Shown here: one piece after another, positions 4,834 to 24,185 of the stretch | Layout: every line of letters starts with the position of its first letter | Numbering within the stretch: position 1 is the stretch's first letter | Virus record (IMG/VR): IMGVR_UViG_3300020201_000074 | Coordinates: 1-32,341 of that record | Length of the DNA: 32,341 bases | Strand: one strand, 5' to 3' | Source of the DNA: a virus | Notes under the pieces: generated by a model | What the model was told of the DNA's origin: nothing | Seen by the model: only the letters and a program-made list of their open reading frames with translations | The model's database searches: none | Made by a program: the position numbers and the translations under genes

Positions 4834-5016
4834 ATGGACGCGCATCAACAGCTTCGAGCCCTTCTAGCCATTCTCCGCGAGCAGGGAGTCGTGCGCTACT
4901 CGAGCGCTGACATCACGCTGGAATTGGGGCCGCTGCCACTTCCTCGCGTTGAGGAAGCCAAGCCTCCGTCGGCTGCTGAAGACGTCGATTCCCTCATGTA
5001 CTGGAGCGCCGAATGA
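4834..5016 (+). CDS. Small protein between terminase and portal, 60 aa
   Basis: The ATG at 4834 has CAGGAG at 4818-4823; the frame is open back to 4765 but without a ribosome binding site. The product begins MDAHQQLRALLAILREQGVV, a helix, then a short strand segment with alternating polar residues (YSSADITLELGPLP), and an acidic tail (AAEDVDSLMYWSAE). Its end overlaps the portal start by four bases. Small proteins of this look lie between terminase and portal in other podoviruses. Function unknown. Confidence 0.6.
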   Translation: MDAHQQLRALLAILREQGVVRYSSADITLELGPLPLPRVEEAKPPSAAEDVDSLMYWSAE

Positions 5017-6854
5017 AGGTTCACACCGTAGACCTGACGCCACGCCGCCACGGCAAAGACACCAACCCGCAATGGTGGTTCGAAGAGGCAGACCTGCATC
5101 AACACGTATGGGAATCGGCGCGAGTTCTAGAGGGAGCCTCTTCCGGCCGTCGCCAGGAGGACCTCCGCCACTCGCGCCTCTACTCCAACCGCGCCTTCCT
5201 GCAGCTCTCTGTGAGCGCGCCGGGTCGGGAGCAAACCCGCTCGATGGCAGATGCCGCACGGCTGACGCTCAACGTCATCAAGTCATGCGTGGACACCGCT
5301 TGCGCCAAAATCAGCCAGGCGCGTCCGAGGCCACTATTCTTGACGTCTGGCGCCGACTGGAAGCTGAAGAAACGCGCCCAACAGCTAACCAAGCTCATCG
5401 ATGGCTTGTTCGACGCGGAAGAGGTGTACGCGCTAGGCCAGAGCGTGTTCCGCGACTCGCTCGTCACCGGCACAGGCGTCGTGAAGGTGTTCCAGGACGG
5501 GTTTAAAGTATGCTTCGAGCGTGTACACGCCAGCGAGCTTTTACTTGACGATGGCGAGGCCCATTACGGTAAGCCAAGGACGCTCTACCAGCGCCGGCAC
5601 ATCTCTCGAGACGTACTCGCCACTCGCTTTCCCAAGCATGCTGCGGCCATCCTCTCGGCAGACTCGACCTTTTCGAAAGAGGACGCCGCGAATCCGCAGC
5701 TCGTCACGGTCGTCGAGGCATGGCACTTGCGGTCATCCCCTGAGGCTAAAGACGGGCGTCACGTGGTCACCGTCGCCTCCGCCGTCCTCGTCGACGAGCC
5801 ATGGGACAAGGACCACTTCCCCTTCGCGTTCCTTCGCTGGTCAGAGCCGCTTATAGGCTTTTGGGGCACAGGACTAGCCGAAGAACTGACCGGCATTCAA
5901 ATCGAAGTGAATAAAATCCTACGTAACATCCAAGCCGCACAGAACGTCTGCTCAGTGCCCCGCGTGTTCATCGAGAACGGCTCGACAGTGAACGGCGCGG
6001 CGCTCCAGGCTAACCCCGAGGGGCTCTCAGTCGTGCGCTACAACGGCACGGCCCCGACGTTCATGACAGCTCAAGCCATGCCGGGCGAGGTCTACGCGCA
6101 CCTCGACAGGCTCGAGAGCAAGGCCTACGCCATCACGGGCGTCTCGCAGCTCTCAGCCCAGTCCAAGAAGCCCTCGGGCCTCGACTCCGGTGTCGCACTC
6201 CGGGAGTACCAGGACATAGAGAGCGAGCGCTTCGTGCTGGTGGGTCAGCGCTACGAGCAGTTCTTCCTCGACATCGCACGTCTGGCAGTTGAGGAAGCGG
6301 CGTCGCTCTACGAAGCCAAGCCCGGGTTCAACGTCCTCGTAGCCACAAAAGGGCGCTCCGAGAAAATCGTGTGGAAAGACGTGCAGCTCAAGCGCGACCA
6401 GTACCTCCTGCGGTGCTTCCCCACATCGCTCTTGCCCACGACGCCAGCGGGCCGCCTGCAGAAGGTGCAGGAACTCATCCAAGCGGGCTTACTCGACAAG
6501 GACGAGGGGATGGCGCTCCTCGACTTCCCAGACCTCGAAGGCTCGATGAGCGTTGTTACGTCGGCTTACAATGACGCCACACGCGTCGTCGAGAGCATTC
6601 TTGAGAATGGTACTTACGAAACACCCGAGCCTTACCAGAACCTCGGCCTCCTGATTCGTGTAGCCCAGGGCTCTTACCTCAAAGCACGAGCCGAACGCGC
6701 GCCGGAAGAGCGCCTTGAACTGCTTCGCCGTCTGATTGACGACGCCGCTGCACTCCAGCGCGAAACACAGCCGCAAGCCGTGGAACAAGCGCCCATGGCT
6801 CTCCCAGAGGCTCAACCGACGTCGGAACTGCTGCCGGTAACGCCCGTCATCTAA
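5013..6854 (+). CDS. Portal (head-tail connector) protein
   Basis: A 613-aa protein that forms the dodecameric channel at the capsid vertex through which DNA enters and leaves. The region around residues 85-125 (ARLTLNVIKSCVDTACAKIS, then RPRPLFLTSG) is the typical portal pattern in which an N-V-I/V-x-x-x-V-D-T helix leads to a Pro-rich loop. The size, and its position between terminase and scaffold, fit the family. A long helical middle (IQIEVNKILRNIQAAQ) follows, and the C-terminal 45 residues are Gln/Pro-rich and probably disordered. It overlaps the upstream small gene (ATGA). Confidence 0.88.
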   Translation: MKVHTVDLTPRRHGKDTNPQWWFEEADLHQHVWESARVLEGASSGRRQEDLRHSRLYSNRAFLQLSVSAPGREQTRSMADAARLTLNVIKSCVDTACAKISQARPRPLFLTSGADWKLKKRAQQLTKLIDGLFDAEEVYALGQSVFRDSLVTGTGVVKVFQDGFKVCFERVHASELLLDDGEAHYGKPRTLYQRRHISRDVLATRFPKHAAAILSADSTFSKEDAANPQLVTVVEAWHLRSSPEAKDGRHVVTVASAVLVDEPWDKDHFPFAFLRWSEPLIGFWGTGLAEELTGIQIEVNKILRNIQAAQNVCSVPRVFIENGSTVNGAALQANPEGLSVVRYNGTAPTFMTAQAMPGEVYAHLDRLESKAYAITGVSQLSAQSKKPSGLDSGVALREYQDIESERFVLVGQRYEQFFLDIARLAVEEAASLYEAKPGFNVLVATKGRSEKIVWKDVQLKRDQYLLRCFPTSLLPTTPAGRLQKVQELIQAGLLDKDEGMALLDFPDLEGSMSVVTSAYNDATRVVESILENGTYETPEPYQNLGLLIRVAQGSYLKARAERAPEERLELLRRLIDDAAALQRETQPQAVEQAPMALPEAQPTSELLPVTPVI

Positions 6855-6874
6855 TCAGAAAGCAAGGAGAAAAC

Positions 6875-7678
6875 ATGAGCGAAATAGTTTCCACACCCGT
6901 CAGTAGCCCTGCCGCACCCGTCTCGATTCCCGAGGTTGCCGTCGTCACCGCGGCGCCATCTGCACCAATCGAGCAGGCAAAGCCGGACACGCCGGCTGAC
7001 GACCAGCGCATGGGCCGCAAGTTCGCGGAACTCACACGGCGCCAGCGTGACCTCGTACAGCGTGAGCAGGCGATGAAGGACCAGGCGACTAAGGTCGAGC
7101 CACTCTCGCGGGCCATCGAAGAGGCACGAGCATCGAAGAATCCTGCTAAGATTCTTGCCGCCGCGGGCTTCTCGCTCGACGACGTCATCGAGTTCTACGC
7201 ACAGGGTGGCGAAGATGCCGTCGAAGCTACGCCTGAGAAGAGCGTAGAGGACATGGTCGATGAGCGTCTGGCGAAGAAACAGCAGGAGGAGGCTGGCGCT
7301 AGGTACGACCAGCAGATTACCGACTTCAAGGCGTCCATCAAGGAAACAGCCGCCGCTGACCAAGACGCCTTCGAGCTGGTTAATAAGTTCGAGCAGCATG
7401 ACGTGGTCTACGACGTAATCCTCGCCCACCACACCCAGAGCGGAGAAGTGCTGTCAGTAACGGACGCCCTCGCTTTGGTGGAACAGCATCTTTTTAGCCA
7501 GATTTCTGGCCTCAAGAAGACGCAGCCCAAGCCCCAAGCCAGTCCCCAGAGTCGCGAGCCACGGACGCAGTTCACCCTCTCCCAGAGTCAGGCAGCGCCG
7601 ATGCCGCCTGCCCAAACCAAACTGACGCCCCAACAGGCGAAAGACCGTGCAGTCTCGATGCTGCGCTTCAACAACTAA
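6875..7678 (+). CDS. Capsid scaffolding protein
   Basis: A 267-aa protein between portal and capsid with AAGGAG upstream. The N-terminus (1-45) is Ala/Pro/Val-rich and looks disordered. Residues about 47-80 form a strongly charged helix (KFAELTRRQRDLVQREQAMK), and further helices follow through residue 190. The C-terminal 70 residues are Pro/Gln-rich and end with a short helix (QQAKDRAVSMLRFNN), like the capsid-binding tail of scaffolds. It would guide shell assembly and then leave. The call comes from composition and position; no catalytic motif is expected. Confidence 0.8.
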   Translation: MSEIVSTPVSSPAAPVSIPEVAVVTAAPSAPIEQAKPDTPADDQRMGRKFAELTRRQRDLVQREQAMKDQATKVEPLSRAIEEARASKNPAKILAAAGFSLDDVIEFYAQGGEDAVEATPEKSVEDMVDERLAKKQQEEAGARYDQQITDFKASIKETAAADQDAFELVNKFEQHDVVYDVILAHHTQSGEVLSVTDALALVEQHLFSQISGLKKTQPKPQASPQSREPRTQFTLSQSQAAPMPPAQTKLTPQQAKDRAVSMLRFNN

Positions 7679-7689
7679 GGTAAAATCAA

Positions 7690-8931
7690 ATGACCGTCGA
7701 CCTAGCCTCCCTGACCCCCGCGATGAAAGAATACTATAACGAGTCGATGTACCAGGAGCTTGTCTACAAGGACAATCCGTTCCTGGCAATGGTCGCCAAG
7801 GACGAGAAGTTCCGTGGCAAACATATGCCCATCCCTAACAAATTCTCCGACGGCGGCGGCGTCTCCGCTTCCTTCGCGAATGCCCAGGCGCAGGCTGCAT
7901 CGGGCTCGCCCAAATTCGAGGACTTCCTGCTCACCCACGTCCAACTTTTCAGTATCGCTCAAGTCGACGGTCTCGCCGTGGAACTCGCCCAGGGTAACGC
8001 GTCGAGCTTCATCGATGCCGTCACTGCCGCGAGCGATTCGGCCCACAACCGCCTGACGCGCGCCGTGGCCCTCCAGCTCTTCCGCTCAGGCGCTGGCGAA
8101 CTCGGACAGGTTCTCGCGGAGCCTGCAGAACTGGCCACGACCATAATCACGCTGAAGAACAAAGGCGACGCCTCGAACTTCGACGTGGGACAGACCCTGG
8201 TCATCTTCGCGGCGCTCTCGGGCGGCTCGGCCAGGACCACTGACGGCACACTCGCTGCCTTCCCCATAATCGGCGTGGACGTCTCGGCTGGGACCATCAC
8301 CCTCGACGACGCCTACGATGCTTCGGGAACCATCGCCGCCAATGACTACATCTTCCTCCAGGGGACACGTGGTGGGCAAATCGCTGGTCTCGCTGGATGG
8401 TTGCCATCCGCTGCGCCTACGTCGACAGCCTTCTTCGGAGTTGACCGCACAGTTGACGCCACGAAGCTCGCCGGAGTTCGCCACGACGGTTCTGCGCAGT
8501 CCATCGAAGAAGCCCTCATCGACGGCTCGTACAAAGCAGGCAAGGTCGGCGGCAAGCCTGAAATCGTCGTCGTGAGCTTCGAGCAATACGGTGCGCTCGT
8601 GAAGAGCCTCGGTGCCAAAGTCCAGTATGTCGACCTCAAAGTTGGTGAAGTCGGCTTCCGCGCAGTCGAAATCCACGGTCCACGCGGGACGATGAAAGTC
8701 GTCGCCGACATGAACCTGACCGCCAACGTGGCTTACCTCCTCGACATGAAGTCCTGGAAGCTCTGCACCGCAGGCAAGGCAATCGACTTCATAATCCAGG
8801 ACAGCGGTAACATCTGGTTGCGCCAGCCCTCGGGCGATGGCATCGAAGCCCGCCTCGCGTTCCGTGGGAACCTCGCGTGCAACGCACCTGGTCATAACGC
8901 GGTCGTGACCCTGCCAGCTCTGAGCGCCTGA
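7690..8931 (+). CDS. Major capsid protein
   Basis: A 413-aa protein that forms the head shell. Ribosome binding is by AAGG (7676-7679). The region around residues 40-75 (KFRGKHMPIPNKFSDGGGVS, then ASFANAQAQAASG) followed by FEDFLLTHVQLFSIAQVDG matches the layout of HK97-fold phage coat proteins in which an N-terminal arm leads into a strand-rich P/A domain. Its place directly after scaffold, and the strong terminator after it, fit a highly expressed gene. A roughly 100-residue Ala/Thr/Asp-rich middle (about 150-230) may be a surface insertion. The fold is inferred. Confidence 0.88.
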   Translation: MTVDLASLTPAMKEYYNESMYQELVYKDNPFLAMVAKDEKFRGKHMPIPNKFSDGGGVSASFANAQAQAASGSPKFEDFLLTHVQLFSIAQVDGLAVELAQGNASSFIDAVTAASDSAHNRLTRAVALQLFRSGAGELGQVLAEPAELATTIITLKNKGDASNFDVGQTLVIFAALSGGSARTTDGTLAAFPIIGVDVSAGTITLDDAYDASGTIAANDYIFLQGTRGGQIAGLAGWLPSAAPTSTAFFGVDRTVDATKLAGVRHDGSAQSIEEALIDGSYKAGKVGGKPEIVVVSFEQYGALVKSLGAKVQYVDLKVGEVGFRAVEIHGPRGTMKVVADMNLTANVAYLLDMKSWKLCTAGKAIDFIIQDSGNIWLRQPSGDGIEARLAFRGNLACNAPGHNAVVTLPALSA

Positions 8932-8940
8932 AGCACCTAG

Positions 8941-8969
8941 GAGGGGGGCCTTTCGCCTCCCTCTTTTTT
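8941..8969 (+). terminator. Rho-independent terminator after the capsid gene
   Basis: A hairpin with arms GAGGGGGGC (8941-8949) and GCCTCCCTC (8955-8963), nine pairs with one G-T, a five-base loop (CTTTC) and then six T (8964-8969). It starts ten bases after the capsid stop. It would limit or attenuate transcription into the connector genes, setting high capsid and lower tail expression. Confidence 0.88.
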
Positions 8970-8995
8970 CACTCCCTCACTCAAAGGAGCCACCC

Positions 8996-9394
8996 GTGGC
9001 CAGCAGAATGTTTCAGCAGTTCCAAGGTTCCCTCGAACGCGGCGTCGTCAAGCTCTTCGCGACCGTTACCACATCCACGTCTGGCACGGTCTCCTCGCAG
9101 GACGCCATGGGGCTCGTCGTCTCGAAGGTATCGGGCAAAGCCGGGCGCTACAAACTCACGCTGGCCGACGCCTACCAGCGCGTTCTTGCGTGCAGTGCGG
9201 TCGTCATCGGCGCGGCTGACGCGGCTTACGCAACGGCAAACGGCGTGCAAGCGATTCTGCGCAACGTGGCAGTGTCGGGCGCTGCCCCCGCCCTGGAGGT
9301 GCAACTCTGTCGTACTGACACGGGCGCTGATGCCGAAGTCATCGACGCAGCCGTAATCCTGATTGAACTCACGCTCTCCAACTCTAGCGTCTAA
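8996..9394 (+). CDS. Phage virion protein, possibly head decoration
   Basis: A 132-aa protein starting at GTG 8996 with AAAGGAG at 8984-8990. It reads as an all-beta domain: FQGSLERGVVKLFATVTTST, then VVSKVSGKAGRYKLTLADAY, then a hydrophobic C-terminal strand (AAVILIELTLSNSSV). The pattern of a GSLE-GVVKLFG strand followed by GRYTLTL-D-Y is known in small structural proteins coded beside the capsid gene in podoviruses. It probably binds the head surface or serves as a fibre base. Position and pattern support a virion role; the exact site is unknown. Confidence 0.5.
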   Translation: MASRMFQQFQGSLERGVVKLFATVTTSTSGTVSSQDAMGLVVSKVSGKAGRYKLTLADAYQRVLACSAVVIGAADAAYATANGVQAILRNVAVSGAAPALEVQLCRTDTGADAEVIDAAVILIELTLSNSSV

Positions 9395-9405
9395 GGGGTT
9401 AAATC

Positions 9406-9609
9406 ATGTTTAAACATAAAGACGCCATGGTGAAAGACATCCTGGTCCAAATCAGCAAGAAGAAGCCCGAGCGCGAAGGCGCGCCTGAAGGCGAGCCCGA
9501 GGAAGACGCAGGCTTGGAAGCCGCCGCCGAGGAAATCCTCGAGGCAGTCCGAGCACGCGACGCTGCGGGACTTGCGCAGGCTCTGAAATCATTCATCGAA
9601 CAATGCTGA
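9406..9609 (+). CDS. Small acidic helical protein, 67 aa
   Basis: A 67-aa protein with AAGGGG (9393-9398) upstream. The start is basic (MFKHKDAMVKDILVQISKKK), then comes a strongly acidic Gly/Pro linker (EREGAPEGEPEEDAG) and an Ala/Glu-rich amphipathic helix (AAAEEILEAVRARDAAGLAQ). Small proteins with this bipartite build sit between capsid and adaptor genes in many phages. No function can be assigned from sequence. Confidence 0.55.
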   Translation: MFKHKDAMVKDILVQISKKKPEREGAPEGEPEEDAGLEAAAEEILEAVRARDAAGLAQALKSFIEQC

Positions 9610-9618
9610 GGTAACACC

Positions 9619-10272
9619 ATGACTGCCACTTTCGGCCAGCTCAAGGCACGAGCCCGTTCGAGGGCAGACATGGACGGAAGCCAGTTCGTGGCCGACGCCG
9701 AGTTCGCGCAGTTCGTGCAGGACTCCGCAGCGGAACTCTACGACATCCTTGTCGCCTCGTTTCAGGACTATTACGTCTCCGTGACGGCAGACACAGTGGT
9801 CGCCAGCGGGCAAGATTCCATTACGCTCCCGACAGACTTCTACAAGCTCAGGGGTGTTGACCGAAACGTCGGCGCCCGTTGGGTTTCGATTGACCCATTC
9901 TCATTTGCAGAGCGTAACGACCGGGTGGGCAGCCTGGCGTATGACGAATCTGGCATCCGCTACAGGGTACAAGGTGGGGTCGCCAAGTTAACACCAGCCG
10001 ACCAGTGCCAGGGCACCTACCGCGTTTGGTACATCCCCCTGATGCCCGCCCTCACCCTCGACGCCGACATCTTCGACGACCAGAACCGCTGGAGTGACTA
10101 CGTCGTGGTAGACGCCGCGATAAAGGCCCTTCAGAAAGAGGAGTCCTCGACAACTCAGCTTGAGCGGCAGAAAGCGGCCTTGCTCAAGCGCATCGAAGAC
10201 ATGGCGAAGTCACGCGACGCCGGAGGTCCAGAGGTCATCGTGCCACAGGGTCGAGGTGCCTGGTGGGCGTAA
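9619..10272 (+). CDS. Head-tail adaptor protein
   Basis: A 217-aa protein with GAGG upstream (GCTGAGGTAACACC). It starts with a short helix and a conserved-looking helix with Phe/Asp (DAEFAQFVQDSAAELYDIL), then a beta segment (ITLPTDFYKLRGVDR) and a long C-terminal helix (VVDAAIKALQKEESSTTQLE) ending in a Lys/Arg-rich tail. This is the pattern of the ring that closes the portal in podoviruses, equivalent in role to P22 gp4 or T7 gp11. The position between capsid and tail genes agrees. The assignment comes from pattern and order, not from a diagnostic residue. Confidence 0.7.
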   Translation: MTATFGQLKARARSRADMDGSQFVADAEFAQFVQDSAAELYDILVASFQDYYVSVTADTVVASGQDSITLPTDFYKLRGVDRNVGARWVSIDPFSFAERNDRVGSLAYDESGIRYRVQGGVAKLTPADQCQGTYRVWYIPLMPALTLDADIFDDQNRWSDYVVVDAAIKALQKEESSTTQLERQKAALLKRIEDMAKSRDAGGPEVIVPQGRGAWWA

Positions 10273-12227: not shown

Positions 12228-12467
12228 ATGACTTACGTCTTCACCTACCGACGCAACTGGTTCTGGCACTCATTCAAAGTTTCTGGACACACCTACGACG
12301 CTACTCAGGACAAAATTGTTCTGTTCTTTCCTGACGGCGGCGTGCGTGAGATTACCAAATGGAGGGAATGCGAGGTTCGCCTTTGTGCAGACTGGGTACT
12401 TGCCCAACAGAAAGCCCTTGAGGCTCAGACCGGCACGCCGATTGCGCTCGCGGTAGGTGGCAAATGA
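12228..12467 (+). CDS. Hypothetical small protein before nozzle gene, 79 aa
   Basis: The ATG at 12228 has AAAGGG at 12215-12220; an upstream in-frame ATG at 12183 overlaps the hairpins and has no ribosome binding site. The product (MTYVFTYRRNWFWHSFKVSG) starts with an aromatic-rich beta segment with FTYRRNWFW, then GHTYDATQDKIVLFFPDGGV, and ends with an Ala/Gln helix. Its stop overlaps the next start (ATGA). The strand-turn-strand build with a DGG turn suggests a compact domain. Function unknown. Confidence 0.55.
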   Translation: MTYVFTYRRNWFWHSFKVSGHTYDATQDKIVLFFPDGGVREITKWRECEVRLCADWVLAQQKALEAQTGTPIALAVGGK

Positions 12468-15400
12468 CTCTCCAAAAGCAGACCATTCCGCTCGTCCTTG
12501 GCCTCGGCGTTAACTCCAAAGCCGACCCGAAACAGCTACAAGGCTCGCTCCTCCGCATGGAGAACGCGACGATGCTTCGGACAGGCGAGATTCGCAAACG
12601 GAACGGCTTCACGACGCTTGGGCTCTCAGTCTTGGGCGGTGCGGACATTTCTAGCGCGCTCAAGTTGGTGACCTACAACAGTGAGCTTTGCCTGGTCGAC
12701 CGGCGCAGCCTTTACACATATGGGCTCGCAGCACAGCAGTGGGCGAACCGTGGACCTTGCCCCACGACCAGCGTGCAGACGACGAACGTTGTCACCAACT
12801 CGTACGAGCAGACCTCTGCCGACTTCTGCTACTCGGGGAACACCTCGACGTACGCGTGGGAAGACTCGCGGGGGGGTGTTCGTGCCCTTGTGCTCGACCA
12901 GCAGTCTGGTGCTCGCATCTTGCAGGACATCCGGCTCAACGCGAATGGCATCAGACCACGGTGCTTTGCCATCGGCCAATTCCAGTTCGTCTTCTACTAC
13001 GACACGGTGACCGAGAGGCTCATTTGCAGGCGGCTCGACACCCTGGTGCCCTCGGCGTTCTCACCGGAGAATGTCATAGCAGCGGACGTCAACACGACCA
13101 CACCCATGTTCGATGTCGCCCTCCTGGGCGCAAGCCGCATGGTCGTCGCCTACCGAAATACGTCGGCCCAGCTCAAGCTAGCCATCGTCCTGCTCACGGG
13201 TCAGGTCGGCGGGGTTGCAGACGGTGTTCCAGGACCAACGGCCATAACAGACGAAAACCCAGACGGGTGTCTCGCAGTATGTACCGGCGTTCGCGCCGGC
13301 CAGAAAGACACTTTCCACGTCGCCTGGTACAACACCTCGGCCGGGGTAAAGACCCGTGGGTTCTATGACGACTTCACGACCTACAAGGCAGCACTTGTCA
13401 TCGACGCGTCCACGTCGCCCGCAGTGCGAAACGTCACAGCCCTCGCGTACGTTAACGAGCTGACCACGCTGAACGCGCTTGAGCTATTCTATGAGCGCGA
13501 TGCAGCAGCGGACGTGAACCACTACGTGCAGCGTTGCCGTGTTGCCGTCGTGGACAACACCTTCTCGACGCCCACCGTGTTCCAGCGTTCGGCAGGGCTG
13601 GCCTCGAAGGCGTACCGAAACGACGGCTCGACGAAAATCATGGTGTCTTACGCCTCGGCGGAGGGGCTACAGGACACCTACTTCTCGCTGTCTGATGCCG
13701 CTGGCCTCCGAGCGACAGGCTGGGGTTTTGACTGGGGCAACAACTGGGGTGGTAGCTCTTCTGACTCCATAATCCAGGCAAAGATGCTCTCGACCGTCGC
13801 GGGTGGGCACACGACGCGAGCGTCACAGCTCCCCGGAAGTTGGTACCTCGACGACTCCACGATTGGTGTCTCGGGGCTGCGGAAAACCCGCGTCGTGGCT
13901 GGCAACGTCTCCACATTCTCCCTGCGCGGCGTGAATCAGCTCAGAATCAACCATGCGGCGGCGTCTATTGGCGTCTCGGAGCAGCTCGGCCAGAACCTAC
14001 ACATACCTGGCGGGTTCTTGAAGATGTTCGACGGCGAGAGTGTCACAGAGCACGGCTACCATCTCTATCCCGATAGCGTGACGTCGGCTGCGGGAACCAT
14101 CGGGGCCATCGCCAACGGAACGTACCAGCACGTCGTTGTGTGGGAGTGGATTGATGCCAAGGGGCAGATTCACCGCTCGGCTCCAAGCATTCCCAAAGCA
14201 ATAACCCTTACGGGCTCTAACGACTCAGTGACCGTGACTATCCCGACGCTGAGGTTTACGGCAAAGAAAGCTCCTGCGAGGTCGGAGGTAGTCGCCGCCG
14301 TCTACCGCACGACAGCCGGAGGCTCGCTTTTCTATAAGGTCAGTTCCGACACGGCGCCGCTGTACAATGACACGACGGTCGACACGATTGCCTTTGTGGA
14401 CCTGCTGGTGGACGCCTCGATTACGTCTAGGCCACTCCTATACACCACTGGAGGGGTTCTGGAGAACACGCCCGTGTCCGCGTGTGACGTGGTCATCGCC
14501 TATAAGAACAGACTGTTCGCTGCTGGTCTAGAAAGCTCGTCCGACCTGCGCTACTCCAAGGAGTTTGTGCGTGACGAGGGTGTGGCATTCAGCGACGCGT
14601 TGACGCTCGGGGCAGACTCCGGCGGCGGCGGCATCAGGGCGTTTGCCGTGCTCGACGACAAGCTCGTTCTGTTCAAACAAAGCTCAATCTTCATCCTCGT
14701 GGGTAACGGCCCCGTCGACACGGGCGCCCAGAACGACTTTCTCCCTCCACAGCAAATCGCAACGGACGTTGGATGCAGCGAGCCCGAAAGCGTCGTGCTG
14801 ACCCCCAAGGGCATCATGTTCAAGAGCGAGAAGGGGATTTACCTCCTCGACCGCGCCCTCACGTTGACCTACGTCGGCGACAAAGTTCAGGACTTTAACG
14901 CGCTCAACGTCTCGTCCGCCGTACTTGTCGCTGACGTCAACCACGTTCGGTTCACGACCACGCAGGGAACGACGCTGGTCTACGACTATTTCTACGACGC
15001 CTGGAGCACCTTCACGCGTCAGGAGGCAGTCTCGGCGGCCAACTGGCTCGGCGGTTATGTCTTTCTACGAGCAAACGGGAATGCCCTGCGTGAAACAGAG
15101 GGCGTTTACTCGGACGACGGCGTGCCTATCCGCACGCGGCTCGAGACGGCGTGGGTCTCGACGGCTGGCCTACAGGGCTTCCAGAGGGTGTACCGGCTGG
15201 CGCTGCTCGGGCAGTACGTCGGTGCGCACGCTCTGAAAGCGTCCTTGTCCTACGACTTCGCGGACTGGAGCCGTGAGACATTCACCGTGACGCCGTCAGC
15301 CGTAGTCGAAGGGGCTTCCTACGGGGCCGCGTCGCCTTATGGCACAGGCACGTTTGGCCAAGGCACGGGTGTCTACCAGTTCGAGCTGAAACCCGCTCGC

Positions 15401-15550
15401 CAGAAGTGTCAGTCGTTTAAAATCACGCTCGAAGATGCTTTCCCCGAAGGTCAGGGCACGGGCGCATTCACGCTCTCGGGCATCACCCTAGTCATCGGCG
15501 TCAAGGCTGGCACGAACCGGCTCGCTGCTTCGAACACGATGACGTCTTAG
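12464..15550 (+). CDS. Tail tubular protein B / nozzle-like protein
   Basis: A 1028-aa protein, the largest in the window, coupled to the previous gene by ATGA. It begins IPLVLGLGVNSKADPKQLQG, then LRMENATMLRTGEIRKRNGF, matching the start of podovirus tail nozzle proteins (T7 gp12 type), in which a GL-x-x-K-x-DPKQ segment precedes an EN and KRNGF motif. The rest is repetitive beta-sheet, with FAVLDDKLVLFKQSSIFILV and KGIMFKSEKGIYLLD near residues 720-800, as in propeller-like parts of nozzles. It would form the end of the short tail and conduct DNA. Length is typical of larger nozzles. Confidence 0.75.
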   Translation: MTLQKQTIPLVLGLGVNSKADPKQLQGSLLRMENATMLRTGEIRKRNGFTTLGLSVLGGADISSALKLVTYNSELCLVDRRSLYTYGLAAQQWANRGPCPTTSVQTTNVVTNSYEQTSADFCYSGNTSTYAWEDSRGGVRALVLDQQSGARILQDIRLNANGIRPRCFAIGQFQFVFYYDTVTERLICRRLDTLVPSAFSPENVIAADVNTTTPMFDVALLGASRMVVAYRNTSAQLKLAIVLLTGQVGGVADGVPGPTAITDENPDGCLAVCTGVRAGQKDTFHVAWYNTSAGVKTRGFYDDFTTYKAALVIDASTSPAVRNVTALAYVNELTTLNALELFYERDAAADVNHYVQRCRVAVVDNTFSTPTVFQRSAGLASKAYRNDGSTKIMVSYASAEGLQDTYFSLSDAAGLRATGWGFDWGNNWGGSSSDSIIQAKMLSTVAGGHTTRASQLPGSWYLDDSTIGVSGLRKTRVVAGNVSTFSLRGVNQLRINHAAASIGVSEQLGQNLHIPGGFLKMFDGESVTEHGYHLYPDSVTSAAGTIGAIANGTYQHVVVWEWIDAKGQIHRSAPSIPKAITLTGSNDSVTVTIPTLRFTAKKAPARSEVVAAVYRTTAGGSLFYKVSSDTAPLYNDTTVDTIAFVDLLVDASITSRPLLYTTGGVLENTPVSACDVVIAYKNRLFAAGLESSSDLRYSKEFVRDEGVAFSDALTLGADSGGGGIRAFAVLDDKLVLFKQSSIFILVGNGPVDTGAQNDFLPPQQIATDVGCSEPESVVLTPKGIMFKSEKGIYLLDRALTLTYVGDKVQDFNALNVSSAVLVADVNHVRFTTTQGTTLVYDYFYDAWSTFTRQEAVSAANWLGGYVFLRANGNALRETEGVYSDDGVPIRTRLETAWVSTAGLQGFQRVYRLALLGQYVGAHALKASLSYDFADWSRETFTVTPSAVVEGASYGAASPYGTGTFGQGTGVYQFELKPARQKCQSFKITLEDAFPEGQGTGAFTLSGITLVIGVKAGTNRLAASNTMTS

Positions 15551-15584: not shown

Positions 15585-17312
15585 ATGACACCCGAAGAAC
15601 GAGAACTCGCTAAAAAACTGGAAACTAAAGAACAGGCTCCCCCGCCCGGCGGCGCGCCAAAGCAACGGATTAAGGCGACCACATTCGGGGAGTCAGTAAA
15701 GGCTCCGTTCGTCGAGTCTGGCAAAAAGCTCGCCCAAGCAGGCAAGTTTATGGACCCCACGACTGGCAAGATGGGGGCGCGGCTCCGAGCGATTGACCCT
15801 ACGAGCATAACCCGAGCCTCAACGGCAGGCGTCGACGGTGCGCAGGCAGGCATCGAGGGCGCTGCGGCCAGAGCGGGTGGGATGGGCACGGCCCTACAGA
15901 ACAACCCCGTGCGTGCTGCACCGGTCGCAGCGCAGCAGGTCGGCCCTGGAACCACGGTCGAACGGCAAGCCCCCATCGTGGCGGACACAATGCGCGGAAC
16001 GACCCAGACCGTACAGGCCGGACAGGCGCAAGCCGGGGTAATGAGCGCCGCGCAAATCGGCAACGTTGAACGTATGGTGGCGGCGGGGATGTCGCGCGAA
16101 GACGCGCAGGTCCGTGCGCGGCAGATGGCCCTTGCGGATTCTCTAACGGCGTCCGCTGCGGGTGAAGGCCCTTCCCTAGCACAGAGCCAACTAAACAAGG
16201 CAAACGAACAGGCTGTGGCGGGTCAGATGGCCATGGCTGCATCAGCCCGTGGTGGAAACCCTGTTCTTGCGCAGCGGCAGGCCATGCAAAATGTGGCGGC
16301 ACTCCAGCAGGACAATGCGGCGAAATCGGCTGAACTTCGTCTAGCGGAAGCCCTCCAGGCCAGAAGCCAGCTCGGGCAGGTACTCGACTCGGCACGCGGG
16401 CAGGACATTTCCGTGTCGGGCACGCAGGCTGGTTTCGAGCAGCAGGCCAATCTCACGAACGCGGTTACCGGCAAAGAGGTTGCCATCGCACAGGCGGGGC
16501 TTTCGCAGGATGCATCAAAAACTAACGCCCTCGAAGCAGGACAGACCTCCCGCTTCAACGTGGACACGGAGCTTAAGGGCGACCTTGCTAACCAGGACGT
16601 GGACCTCCGCTCCGGGCTAGCGGACCAGAGCGCTGGGCTCGCGGCGCAGACGGCCACGGCTCAGAATAACATCAGCACAGACCAGTTCAGCGCCAAAGCA
16701 CTGGACGAGATGGCACGTTTCGATGTGGACTTGGACCTCAAGGCGAAGATTGTCAACCAAGCTGCAACACTCCAGGCACAAGGCATGACGATTGACGGCA
16801 TCGCCAAGTTTATGGGCATCGAGCAGCAGTCGCTCGCGGCTGTCTTGCAGTCGGAAACGGCGAAACTCCAAACGGAACAGGCACGGCAAACCGCTCAAAA
16901 GTCGGGAATGACCGGCATGATTGGCGCGGGAGCCTCAGTGGTCGGTGCGGTTATCGCTGCGTGTTTCCCTGCTGGCGAGCAAGTGCTCATGGCCGACGGT
17001 GTCGCCACAAAGAACATTGAAGACGTGGGAGTTGGCGAAGAGCTGTGGGGCTCTACCGTCCTAGAAGCCCGTCGTTACGTCTCGCACGAGGCGCTCTTCC
17101 TGTTCGCCGGCGCCACCATGACCGGCTTACATGCGGTCTGGACACGCGGGGGCTGGACTACGGCGGCGGACGTCGGCTTGCAGGTAGGGGAAGCCATGGA
17201 GCGCGACGTTTATACGCTGGTCACTTCAACGGGCGTGATGGTTGTCGGCGATGCTCTGGTTGGCGACGACAACCACGACGCGGACGAATTGAACATGAAG
17301 GAGTGCGCATAA
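15585..17312 (+). CDS. Internal virion protein with C-terminal Hint domain
   Basis: A 575-aa protein with CAGGAGG upstream. Residues 1-440 are Ala/Gln/Thr-rich and helical, typical of ejected internal proteins. Residues 441-459 (GMTGMIGAGASVVGAVIAA) form a hydrophobic Gly/Ala segment. From Cys460 a Hint (hedgehog/intein) domain begins: CFPAGEQVLMADG, KNIEDVGVGEEL, then TGLHAVWTRGGW with T513 and H516 in the TxxH position of intein block B, and GVMVVGDALVGDDN. Only about 12 residues follow, with no HN plus Cys/Ser/Thr splice junction, so a splicing intein is unlikely. Cleavage before Cys460, as in hedgehog or BIL domains, could release a 459-residue protein ending in the hydrophobic segment. 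The cleavage is inference; the motifs are seen. Confidence 0.72.
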   Translation: MTPEERELAKKLETKEQAPPPGGAPKQRIKATTFGESVKAPFVESGKKLAQAGKFMDPTTGKMGARLRAIDPTSITRASTAGVDGAQAGIEGAAARAGGMGTALQNNPVRAAPVAAQQVGPGTTVERQAPIVADTMRGTTQTVQAGQAQAGVMSAAQIGNVERMVAAGMSREDAQVRARQMALADSLTASAAGEGPSLAQSQLNKANEQAVAGQMAMAASARGGNPVLAQRQAMQNVAALQQDNAAKSAELRLAEALQARSQLGQVLDSARGQDISVSGTQAGFEQQANLTNAVTGKEVAIAQAGLSQDASKTNALEAGQTSRFNVDTELKGDLANQDVDLRSGLADQSAGLAAQTATAQNNISTDQFSAKALDEMARFDVDLDLKAKIVNQAATLQAQGMTIDGIAKFMGIEQQSLAAVLQSETAKLQTEQARQTAQKSGMTGMIGAGASVVGAVIAACFPAGEQVLMADGVATKNIEDVGVGEELWGSTVLEARRYVSHEALFLFAGATMTGLHAVWTRGGWTTAADVGLQVGEAMERDVYTLVTSTGVMVVGDALVGDDNHDADELNMKECA

Positions 17313-18778
17313 TGGAATTCGCAGGACTTTTCTCCCCAGAGAACATGACTCGGGCCAGGCAGAACGAGGAAGACCAAAAGAAGGCACTTATGACCCTGTT
17401 GCCCACGCCCGCCGCGGTGCCTGCGCCGGTGCCCGAGCCTGTGCCGCTGCCTGTCGAAGCGCCCCTCGCTGCGCCGCAACCCCTCATTGTTGAGACGGTG
17501 GACACCACGACGACAAATGCGACGCAGGGCAGTAAACCTACGGCGAACGAAGCGTCGCTCGTCGCAGAGCAGAATAAGCTGTTTGCGGCTCAACAGGCGC
17601 AGGCCGAGAAGGCTGCCGAAGCTGGACGTAACAAGGCCATCGAAGAGGCGGCCAAGGCGGACGAGCGGCTCAAACTCACCGCTGACAAGCAGGTGAAAAC
17701 CGACGCCATCGTACAGGACGGCGAGAAGACCCTCGCCGACCGGCTCGCGGAATCCGACCGCGTGTACCAGAGCCTCAAAGAGCGAGCGGACATAAAAGAC
17801 TACTGGGAGAAGCAGAGCACGGGCGACAAGGTCATGGCGGGTCTTGCCATCGCGCTTGGGGGTTTCGGTTCGGCTCTTACTGGCGACAAAAGCAACCGTG
17901 CGCTCGACATTATAAACCGCGCCGTCGAACAAGACTTCGCCATGCAAAAGGCAAACTTCGAGAACCAGAAAGGCTTGCTGGGAGAGGCGCGTGCGCAGAC
18001 CCAGGACGCCAGACAGGGCATCCAAGACCAAGTAAACATGCTCAACCTGTCCAAGGCGGCGGCCTACGACACGCTCGCCGACAAGTACGCTGGTATGGCT
18101 GCCAAACGAGGTATCCCCGAAGCCGAGGCCGCGAAGGATGCCGTGCTCCTGGACCTTCGCGCAAAGCAGAACGCTGCCCGCATGGCCTACGAGCAGGGCC
18201 TGCGCCAGAGCGTCACGACCCAGACCCAGCGGAAGGTCGACCAGACGGCCATTACGCCAGCGGAGCTAGCGGGCAAGGCATCAGAAGCCGTCTCGAAGTT
18301 TCAGAGCGAGATTCAGGGGAACACAGACTTCAGCGGTTGGAAGAAAAAGAAAGCGTCGCTCGAGTCGTTCTCCTCCATGAAAGAAGCAGGAGCTTCGGGC
18401 GCGGCACTCGTCGACTTCATCGCTGGCGGCCTTCAGCAAGGGTCGTTCGGCCCAGAGATGGTCAACCTACTTTCGAAGAGGAACCTCCTCGACAAGGCAG
18501 GTAACATTATCCGAGAAAACGTCGTCGGTGGGTTCGACCCTGCCCTCATGGGCGCCATCGAAAACGGGCTGAAGTCTCAGGAAGCTAAAACACGGAAGCA
18601 GGCTGCGGCGCCCATCGCAAGGTCTCGGCTCGAGGCAAAGCGTCTCGGACTTGCCGAAGACTACTTCACGGGTGCCACACAGAAAACCATCGTAAAGAAG
18701 CAGTTCAATTCTGGCCTCAACAAAACCAAGCTCGTCTTCAGCGACGGCACCGAGGAGATTGTCGATGGCCAACAATAA
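17312..18778 (+). CDS. Internal virion protein (ejection type), 488 aa
   Basis: The ATG at 17312 shares a base with the previous stop (TAATG) and has AAGGAG at 17298-17303 inside the Hint coding region. Residues 32-60 are Pro/Val/Ala-rich (APVPEPVPLPVEAPLA). A long charged helix follows (about 85-150, EKAAEAGRNKAIEEAAKADE). Around 178-235 comes KVMAGLAIALGGFGSALTGD, then ALDIINRAVEQDFAMQKANF, a pattern known in podovirus internal proteins where a glycine-rich hydrophobic helix precedes an ALDIIN-type helix. It probably enters the host with the DNA. The role is inferred from pattern and neighbours. Confidence 0.65.
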   Translation: MEFAGLFSPENMTRARQNEEDQKKALMTLLPTPAAVPAPVPEPVPLPVEAPLAAPQPLIVETVDTTTTNATQGSKPTANEASLVAEQNKLFAAQQAQAEKAAEAGRNKAIEEAAKADERLKLTADKQVKTDAIVQDGEKTLADRLAESDRVYQSLKERADIKDYWEKQSTGDKVMAGLAIALGGFGSALTGDKSNRALDIINRAVEQDFAMQKANFENQKGLLGEARAQTQDARQGIQDQVNMLNLSKAAAYDTLADKYAGMAAKRGIPEAEAAKDAVLLDLRAKQNAARMAYEQGLRQSVTTQTQRKVDQTAITPAELAGKASEAVSKFQSEIQGNTDFSGWKKKKASLESFSSMKEAGASGAALVDFIAGGLQQGSFGPEMVNLLSKRNLLDKAGNIIRENVVGGFDPALMGAIENGLKSQEAKTRKQAAAPIARSRLEAKRLGLAEDYFTGATQKTIVKKQFNSGLNKTKLVFSDGTEEIVDGQQ

Positions 18779-21275: not shown

Positions 21276-24185
21276 ATGGCAACTAACGTAACGTTCAAAG
21301 GCACCACATATAGTGTGCCGACACTCGATGGCGAGGACGGCTGGGCAACTACGCTCTCCACATACCTGCAAGCCATAGCGAGCGGCGCCGCTGTAAACTC
21401 GGTCGTGAAGCAGACCAGCCGGGTTGCCCTGACATCCCCCGTCACGGTCGCGGCTGCAACGGACTTTACGGTGGTCTGCAAGCTCTCAACCCCCGGCGCT
21501 GTCACGGTGAACCTCCCCGCTGGCGCAACCGGCCAGGTCTTTGCCGTGGTGGACGGCACGGGTGACGCTGGCACTAACGCCGTCACGATTGACGCAAGCG
21601 GCGCTGAGACCATCAACGGACAACTCACCTATGCCATAAATGAAAACTTCGGCGGGGTGCTAATTCACTGGAACGGCACGGGCTGGAACGTTTTGGCGGA
21701 CTTTGTAGGCAACGACCCTCGCTTCACCTCAATCAACGTGTCTGGAACGGCTACCATTGGGACTGTAACCGCGACTAATGCCACAGTCGGTGGCGTGGCA
21801 GTCACGACGATTAGCAACACCCAGACGCTCACGGGCAAAAGCATCTCAGGCGCGGATAACACACTCTCCGCCATCCCGCTGGCTTCTCTCAATACGGGCG
21901 CACTGCCCGCCGCCATAACCATAGCATCCGCCAACATCGCTTCAGCAGCCATTGCCCGCACGAAACTCGCCATCGGTTCGAACGACCACGTAGTCATCAA
22001 CTCCGGCTCCGGCGAGATGTCGAGCGAACCGACCCTCGCACGCACACGCGGCGGTACGGGCATAACTTCTACAGCTACGTTCCCAGCAAGTGGCGTAGTC
22101 GCAACCCGTGACGCGTCTGAGACCCTTCTCAACAAACTAATCTCCTCCACCGCCGCAATCACTGGCGCGCTGACCCTGCCCACTTCAACCACGGCTAACA
22201 GACCTTCGCCCGCTACAGGCATGATTCGCCACAACACCGACACTAACGAGTTCGAAGGCTTCTCCGCAGGCGCTTGGCAATCAGTCGGCGGCGGGCTAAA
22301 CGAACAACCGCTTAAAAACTACCTGCGCTCAAATGCCAACGCATCCATCAGCCCAGGAGCGCTCTCCACCGTAGCAGTGGGCGGCGACATCGCCACTACA
22401 GCAGGGCTCTGGTACTCACGTGTAGCTACAGCGTTCACCGTAACCAACCCCTCCTCGACACTCCTGCGCGGCTCATTCAACTACCTGTCTGGCACGAACA
22501 CATCAGCCAACGTTGACGGTACAGTCTTCTTTCAACTCCCTGCGTTCGCACTCGAAGGCTCGGACCTAGGTAAGCCAGTCTCGCTGTCCTTCGACACCAC
22601 AGGCAACACCGCAGCAAATGACTGGGACGTCGTAGTCGCGCGCTACAACTCCAGCGGCGTCTTTCAGGGGCTTATCCCTGTCGCAGGCAACGCATCGCAA
22701 GCATCCTCGGGTAACACCCCAAGCGCACAACTTCCAACAGGCGTGGCGCAGTTCCGTGGGTTCTTCGTGCCTACAGCAGACGTTGACCACCTCTACGCAG
22801 TGCGATTCCGCAGGCTCGCAGGTGCCACGCAAATACGCCTCGACACGCTGTACGCGGGACCACAGGTGCAGCTATTGGGCGCGGCGATTACGGCTTCGCA
22901 AAGTTACACGCCAACCGGCAGTTGGACTAACTGCACGTATTCTGGACGATGGAAGCAGGAAGGGGAGGACATGATTCTCTCCGTTGGTGGCGAATTTACA
23001 GGCACACCTACGGGCGGAGCACTTACGGTTAGTTTGCCGTCTGGGCTCACTATAGACACAACAAAGCTGCTAACCACCGCGTCTTCTGCGCAAATTATAG
23101 GCGACGCTGTATTACTCGACACTGGCGTGGCTGCCTACGACGGGGTGGTCGTTTACGAAAGCACCACTGCCATACGGTTTCAGAATGTGTCGACCGGCGC
23201 TCCGTTTACTTTCGGGAATGGCGACAGATTCACCGCAATAATCCGAGTCCCCATTTCACAATTTTCTTCCAACACGACGATGGCAGAGCGCGCGGTGGAG
23301 GAGTACGCGTGGAATAGCTCCGGCATTACTGCAGCGGGCGCTTCTAACTCCGCAGCTTTTTCGAACGGTCCCGACGGCGCGGCAATCGGCTCTATTGCTA
23401 GTACGACAAACACATCGTCAACTACTATGCGCGTTCGGTTTCAAACTCCGATTCAAGCCACGGACAGCTTGACGCTTGAATTTAAGGAAGTAAATAAACA
23501 GTGGGCGCCGTTTGCGGAAGCGACTGGTACGTCTCAGTTTCTTGCCGCAGGAAGTAAATTCTACGGTGTGAAAATCGACCCATTTACAGGCAATACAACC
23601 GACGTTGACGTGATTTTCTATAATAGCGGCTACCGCACTACTAGCGGCACGTATGCGCAAGATGGCTCGCCATGGTCTGACCTTTCTACGGCGCGATGGA
23701 GGCTCCGCAAAGTCTCAGGCGGCGCGGCAGTAGGCTTCCCAGTTGGCGCGGCTAACATCGTCGGGCGGACAGACGGCTTGGCACCTGCGGCTGGGATGTT
23801 GGGTGAGCAGATTCGAGGCGCGCAGTTAAGTAACACGGCGTTCCCTGCGACTAACACGTATGGCGACCTTACGAGCATTAGCCTCACCGCAGGGGTGTGG
23901 GACATCTCCGCAGTACTTTATGGCGCAATCAACACTGCGGGCGGTCTGAACATTATTAACTGTGGGATTAGCTCAACCGCTGGCAACAGTGCTACCGGAC
24001 TAAGCTTAGGCGACAACCTTTCCACGGGACTACCGCCAACAGGCACTGCCGATACAAACGTATGTATTCCGCAGTTTCGGGTCGTAATAGGCGTAACCAC
24101 AATTTATTATTTAAAGTATTTGGCGGCATTTTCATCTGGCTCGCCCAACGCACGCGGGCGCATCTCCGCAGTTAGGATTGCCTAA
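21276..24185 (+). CDS. Receptor-binding tail fibre protein
   Basis: A 969-aa protein starting two bases after the previous stop. Residues 1-100 look like a virion attachment domain (TYSVPTLDGEDGWATTLSTY). A Thr/Ala/Asn-rich shaft follows (TATIGTVTATNATVGGVAVT), with ARTRGGTGITS near residue 255 typical of phage fibres. Later modules are beta-rich. The C-terminal module (about 862-969) begins YGDLTSISLTAGVWDISAVL and ends GRISAVRIA, the pattern of C1q-like jelly-roll fibre tips. It should form a trimer that binds a host surface sugar or protein. AT content rises from about 22.9 kb, so the distal half may have been acquired separately. Confidence 0.8.
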   Translation: MATNVTFKGTTYSVPTLDGEDGWATTLSTYLQAIASGAAVNSVVKQTSRVALTSPVTVAAATDFTVVCKLSTPGAVTVNLPAGATGQVFAVVDGTGDAGTNAVTIDASGAETINGQLTYAINENFGGVLIHWNGTGWNVLADFVGNDPRFTSINVSGTATIGTVTATNATVGGVAVTTISNTQTLTGKSISGADNTLSAIPLASLNTGALPAAITIASANIASAAIARTKLAIGSNDHVVINSGSGEMSSEPTLARTRGGTGITSTATFPASGVVATRDASETLLNKLISSTAAITGALTLPTSTTANRPSPATGMIRHNTDTNEFEGFSAGAWQSVGGGLNEQPLKNYLRSNANASISPGALSTVAVGGDIATTAGLWYSRVATAFTVTNPSSTLLRGSFNYLSGTNTSANVDGTVFFQLPAFALEGSDLGKPVSLSFDTTGNTAANDWDVVVARYNSSGVFQGLIPVAGNASQASSGNTPSAQLPTGVAQFRGFFVPTADVDHLYAVRFRRLAGATQIRLDTLYAGPQVQLLGAAITASQSYTPTGSWTNCTYSGRWKQEGEDMILSVGGEFTGTPTGGALTVSLPSGLTIDTTKLLTTASSAQIIGDAVLLDTGVAAYDGVVVYESTTAIRFQNVSTGAPFTFGNGDRFTAIIRVPISQFSSNTTMAERAVEEYAWNSSGITAAGASNSAAFSNGPDGAAIGSIASTTNTSSTTMRVRFQTPIQATDSLTLEFKEVNKQWAPFAEATGTSQFLAAGSKFYGVKIDPFTGNTTDVDVIFYNSGYRTTSGTYAQDGSPWSDLSTARWRLRKVSGGAAVGFPVGAANIVGRTDGLAPAAGMLGEQIRGAQLSNTAFPATNTYGDLTSISLTAGVWDISAVLYGAINTAGGLNIINCGISSTAGNSATGLSLGDNLSTGLPPTGTADTNVCIPQFRVVIGVTTIYYLKYLAAFSSGSPNARGRISAVRIA

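Follow-up and report, generated by a model that had tools for sequence, protein, structure and literature searches.

We report that orthologous phage genes appear to hold two unrelated types of self-cutting domain in one and the same C-terminal slot, each starting with its nucleophile: a Hint domain in the virion protein P0001 and its closest relatives, and a Peptidase_S74 domain in others. This exchange, read from sequence comparison, is the new result here, and it points towards a maturation step in which a cut in front of residue 460 releases the C-terminal domain. P0001 probably sheds its own C-terminal tail during virus assembly, and on balance we favour the view that its last 116 residues form a self-releasing Hint domain, the departure of which would leave a mature protein ending at Ala459. 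The proposal, in which we infer the cleavage, its site, its timing and its purpose, builds on an established Hint fold, conserved catalytic residues, missing splice parts and the exchange with Peptidase_S74 in orthologous genes.

The DNA analysed (the window, 32 341 nt in full) is a linear IMG/VR virus fragment, and its Pfam matches to an SU10/P22-type portal, SU10-type capsid and adaptor proteins and a terminase indicate that the phage is SU10-like and short-tailed (Table 1). No close relatives of it were found in the cultured-phage collection, where P0001 in full, its Hint domain, two representatives of the Hint class, an S74 homologue, the capsid protein and the adaptor, each used as a query, yielded nothing useful, and a scan of genome contigs revealed no bacterial genome or prophage carrying the N-terminal part of P0001. 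The identity of the 1028-residue upstream product as a nozzle stays a positional guess accompanied by weak PHROG hits, since its AlphaFold model was unusable (pLDDT 45) and its profile had no match among solved structures. Further downstream, a 969-residue protein (positions 21276–24185), for which Pfam gave no match and PHROG one weak hit, is, judged by position, possibly a tail fibre.

Table 1. Coordinates in the window of the gene for P0001, its parts and the neighbouring genes
Feature	Position	Strand	Basis or conservation
CDS, 575 aa, predicted helical virion protein with C-terminal Hint domain (P0001)	15585..17312	+	ORF; orthologues L002, L126
Conserved, predicted helical core, residues 180–267	16122..16385	+	Common to S74-bearing and tail-less relatives
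Gly/Ala segment, residues 441–459, ending at predicted cleavage site A459–C460	16905..16961	+	
Short Hint domain, residues 460 to about 561	16962..17267	+	
Cys460, block A residue 1, predicted nucleophile	16962..16964	+	Cys in all genuine members of the block-B-only scan
Block B, T513-G-L-H516	17121..17132	+	His invariant in alignment A4 (22/22)
Asp561-Asp562, replacing the intein His-Asn end (block G)	17265..17270	+	First Asp invariant in A4
14-residue tail behind the Hint domain	17268..17309	+	Part is a predicted short helix
Portal (P22/SU10 type), scaffold-like gene, SU10-type capsid protein, SU10-type adaptor	5013..10272	+	Pfam
Upstream 1028-aa virion protein, nozzle-like	12464..15550	+	Position and weak PHROG hits; orthologous in L004, L126, L128, L131
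Downstream 488-aa gene	17312..18778	+	Start overlaps stop of the Hint protein gene; similar in L004, L126, L128, L131

Residues 1–440 of P0001 are polar, Ala/Gln-rich and most likely helical. From Cys460 onwards the sequence runs through block A (CFPAGEQVLMADG) and block B (T513-G-L-H516) to VYTL...VVGDALVGDD, with C460, T513, H516, Y543, D561 and D562 verified at the positions given or derived, and Asp561-Asp562 placed by motif spacing and by the last predicted strand of the AlphaFold model. Used alone, P0001 matched the Pfam family Hom_end_hint under that family's curated cut-off (E 2.6e-4) and nothing significant in the PDB; Hom_end_hint was matched by 21 of the 22 members of an alignment of short Hint domains (A4), and the profile of these 22 matched PI-SceI (E 8e-8) and NEQ068 (E near 1e-4) in the PDB. 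AlphaFold modelled the domain with a pLDDT of 93.5 and a pTM of 0.85, and Foldseek placed the model with the Tetrahymena Vint domain 8r2c (TM 0.68) and the Clostridium thermocellum BIL domain 2lwy (TM 0.70), further PDB matches including BIL2, inteins and Hedgehog (1at0, 6tyy) and the best BFVD matches several viral proteins named Hint. P0001 has the beta fold, the block A Cys at position 1 and the block B Thr and His of the Hint superfamily, and on this model its C-terminus is a compact Hint domain. An earlier note, made from the letters of this DNA, had proposed such a domain from C460, T513 and H516, which are indeed in place, and the comparison with Hint structures that it suggested returned Hint folds as all of the best PDB matches. 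The same note had described a hydrophobic Gly/Ala stretch at residues 441–459; this is true of P0001 (mean Kyte-Doolittle value 1.63) but not as a general trait, the corresponding segments of L002 (0.49) and L126 (0.63) being far less hydrophobic, and the idea of a membrane segment as a feature of the family was dropped.

Inteins have a His-Asn end (in some, Gln or Asp) with a nucleophilic C-extein behind it. In P0001 this position reads Gly-Asp-Asp, the C-extein is absent and the remaining 14 residues are conserved in neither length nor sequence across A4; the stop codon, TAA, overlaps the ATG of the next gene, as it likewise does in L002, and the L126 gene overlaps its neighbour. These features of P0001 argue that the domain cannot splice and is not an intein, and the absence of a splice junction noted earlier is borne out.

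Dozens of phages were found to have proteins that end in short Hint domains of this kind, and judged from these sequences the class is common and widespread at the ends of uncultured-phage proteins. A first scan, with a pattern on block A, returned many C-terminal Hint domains; a second, with block B alone and block A unconstrained, returned at least 88 distinct members judged genuine, each of which has Cys-Phe at position 1 (L185 was discarded as a chance frame). Across both scans the tally of at least 124 distinct sequences contains no real exception to Cys1, seven apparent non-Cys members being register artefacts. Since these samples were selected by pattern, among the matches listed, and the counts are lower bounds, they are read as conservation and not as abundance. 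Three residues that lie outside the block-A scan pattern are invariant in A4 (n=22), namely the His of block B, a Tyr and the Asp at the end. Three probes gave no whole-domain match to the class in the cultured-phage collection.

Several arrangements were seen alongside the class. Single ORFs in L025, L087, L105 and L155 carry a tandem pair, a full Hint domain ending in His-Asn-Lys and then a short one, and in L030 adjoining ORFs (positions 1564 and 2341) each have collagen-like Gly-Pro repeats leading into a Hint domain. A GNAT acetyltransferase-like gene, with Pfam matches under cut-off, adjoins the Hint protein in L147, L148 and L195, an arrangement that we take to be reminiscent of T7 gp13. 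A second Hint family (L139, L184, L186, L197, L200 and others) has a Gly-zipper-like segment immediately before the Cys, and in L139, L186, L197 and L200 its gene lies just downstream of a portal-type gene (the portal match was tested in L186 only). In a second gene family, A7, a Gly-rich lead runs into the Hint domain as in P0001, and two of its members, L238 and L242, have after the same Gly-rich segment an ‘ICTELHRQG’ domain (VICTELHRQG...GYW) in place of Hint, for which no Pfam match was found.

The exchange itself emerged among relatives of the N-terminal part of P0001, retrieved via its conserved core. Hint ends are present in three phages (the window, L002 and L126) and Peptidase_S74 ends scoring above the Pfam cut-off in L004, L128, L130, L131 and L256; the end of L250 is S74-like but has no Pfam match. 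L129 lacks both domains, so a filled slot is dispensable in the family. The S74 ends of L004, L128, L130, L131 and L256 carry the motifs SDINLK, SDEDLK, SDVKSK, SDENMK and SDERLK, with the Ser and the Lys at +5 intact; this dyad is essential for self-cleavage in both MyRF and endoNF, the MyRF residues being the equivalents of endoNF S911 and K916 (PMC8326128). The first nucleophile of the slot is accordingly Cys460 in the Hint form and the Ser of SDxxxK in the S74 form. Each of the seven relatives tested (L250 and L256 lay outside the test) scored against the N-terminal part of P0001 above 500 of 500 shuffles, and L004, L126, L128 and L131 share with the window homologous flanking genes on both sides, the upstream one with a product of about 1000 residues. 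Each of the three Hint carriers is closest to the other two, and they probably form one clade, so the exchange may have been a single event.

By analogy with described Hint chemistry (PMC7765530, PMC9163320), our best reading of the mechanism is an N–S acyl shift at A459–C460 followed by hydrolysis of the thioester. In the folded domain Cys460 would attack the carbonyl of Ala459, assisted by Thr513 and His516 of block B; as there is neither a C-extein nor Asn cyclisation, the thioester would yield to attack by water or some small nucleophile, and Ala459 would become the new C-terminus of the mature virion protein. The Hint domain would then serve only for a time, capping the C-terminus or aiding folding, and be lost in assembly, in parallel with the Peptidase_S74 chaperone, which is thought to be likewise lost from the orthologous proteins. 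That the domain is likely to cleave itself, as had been suggested earlier, gains its strongest support from the presence of an autoproteolytic Peptidase_S74 in the same slot of orthologues. Points against self-release are the lack of either domain in L129, the unconserved hydrophobicity of the segment before the Cys and the probable origin of the Hint carriers in one clade.

The designation of P0001 as an ejected internal virion protein, made in the earlier note, is plausible from gene order and from the match of one homologue, the S74-bearing L128, to phrog_4287 ‘DNA ejection protein’ (E 1.1e-8), but P0001 itself had no significant match to phrog_4287 when searched against PHROG. SU10 has gp17 as its nozzle, gp18 as its needle and gp20–24 as its ejection proteins (PMC9509320), and since the needle is numbered next after the nozzle, a gene beside the nozzle could encode a needle. 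We therefore entertain, tentatively, a tail needle or short fibre that loses its C-terminal domain once the trimer has assembled, a role compatible with cleavage and in keeping with the helical, Ala/Gln-rich sequence of P0001 and with the occurrence of S74 domains mostly on trimeric fibres. Against it stand the L128 match and the family profile, which matched no solved needle.

Hint domains can lose activity yet retain their fold, and the domain might accordingly be a structural or folding cap that has lost cutting and is retained in the virion. The property common to the Hint and S74 slot could be folding rather than cutting, since S74 is also a trimerising chaperone of its partner (PMC8326128). 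We nevertheless consider an inactive cap unlikely, because no sampled member of the class has lost Cys1 or the block-B His, a stricter conservation than the fold would call for by itself.

More doubtful still is a transfer in which the Cys460 thioester hands the C-terminus to a nucleophile to form a covalent link, be it an amine of another virion protein, a DNA-bound protein, the host envelope or a small molecule. Hedgehog does so with cholesterol (PMC9163320), and the short Hint lacks a C-extein that could accept the acyl group, but an acceptor-recognition region is absent from the 14 residues behind the domain, no acidic residue between blocks A and B that might correspond to Asp46 of Hint, the general base of Hog, is invariant in A4, and the S74 domain of the same slot merely hydrolyses. 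Attachment of a lipid, raised earlier, is not supported, given the same lack of a sterol-recognition region and of an invariant acidic residue, and was marked down together with the decayed intein considered below. As a long shot, Hint, S74 and perhaps the ‘ICTELHRQG’ domain might be interchangeable self-releasing C-terminal cassettes of injected or tail proteins, with the Hint thioester at the new C-terminus joining the protein covalently to a partner while the virion assembles or the genome is delivered. That the domain is what remains of an intein, decayed or truncated, at the gene's end is highly improbable: the top Pfam match is indeed an intein-associated Hint model, but the same short form is C-terminal in dozens of phages, every orthologue lacks a C-extein, an invariant Asp stands near the place of the Asn, and the Hint part is under coding constraint, as its codon-position differences between the window and L002 are 0.16/0.19/0.55.

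Self-cleavage of phage fibres is well known; for the ejection or needle-slot proteins of podoviruses, no account of it was found in the literature searched. The occurrence of two unrelated self-cutting domains in one slot of orthologous genes provides a direct, testable argument that removal of the C-terminal domain is a genuine maturation step. The short Hint class is also a compact natural form of the domain that may cut without splicing, which could be of practical use.

The proposed self-releasing domain may be compared with several known systems. Class 1 inteins share with it the block A Cys and the block B TxxH but have the His-Asn end, C-extein and endonuclease that it lacks. Vint domains (PF14623) follow a VWA domain in eukaryotes (PMC2362128); one of them, 8r2c, is the best PDB fold match of the P0001 domain, and the Pfam Vint model matches four of the 22 class members and, weakly, L126, yet the P0001 domain sits behind a phage virion protein and no Pfam match to VWA was found in P0001 or L126. 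B-type BIL domains, for which N-terminal cleavage has been described (PMC7765530), are alike by motifs and fold (2lwy), since P0001 keeps the intein motifs minus the C-terminal one; they differ in that the P0001 domain is C-terminal with no flank, has a shorter second half and ends in a conserved Asp. Uncultured-phage proteins named ‘Hint domain containing’ in BFVD/UniProt are its top BFVD fold matches, and the literature searched held no description of their function or of a slot swap. The Hedgehog Hog domain is likewise a terminal Hint, with the N–S acyl chemistry expected for P0001, but extends into a sterol- or adduct-recognition region where P0001 has 14 residues behind D561. Peptidase_S74 (PF13884), finally, the self-cleaving chaperone known from phage fibres and tail spikes, has an unrelated fold and chemistry (a Ser-Lys pair dependent on the trimer), yet it occupies the same C-terminal slot in the orthologues and, as we propose for Hint, cleaves before its own first nucleophile.
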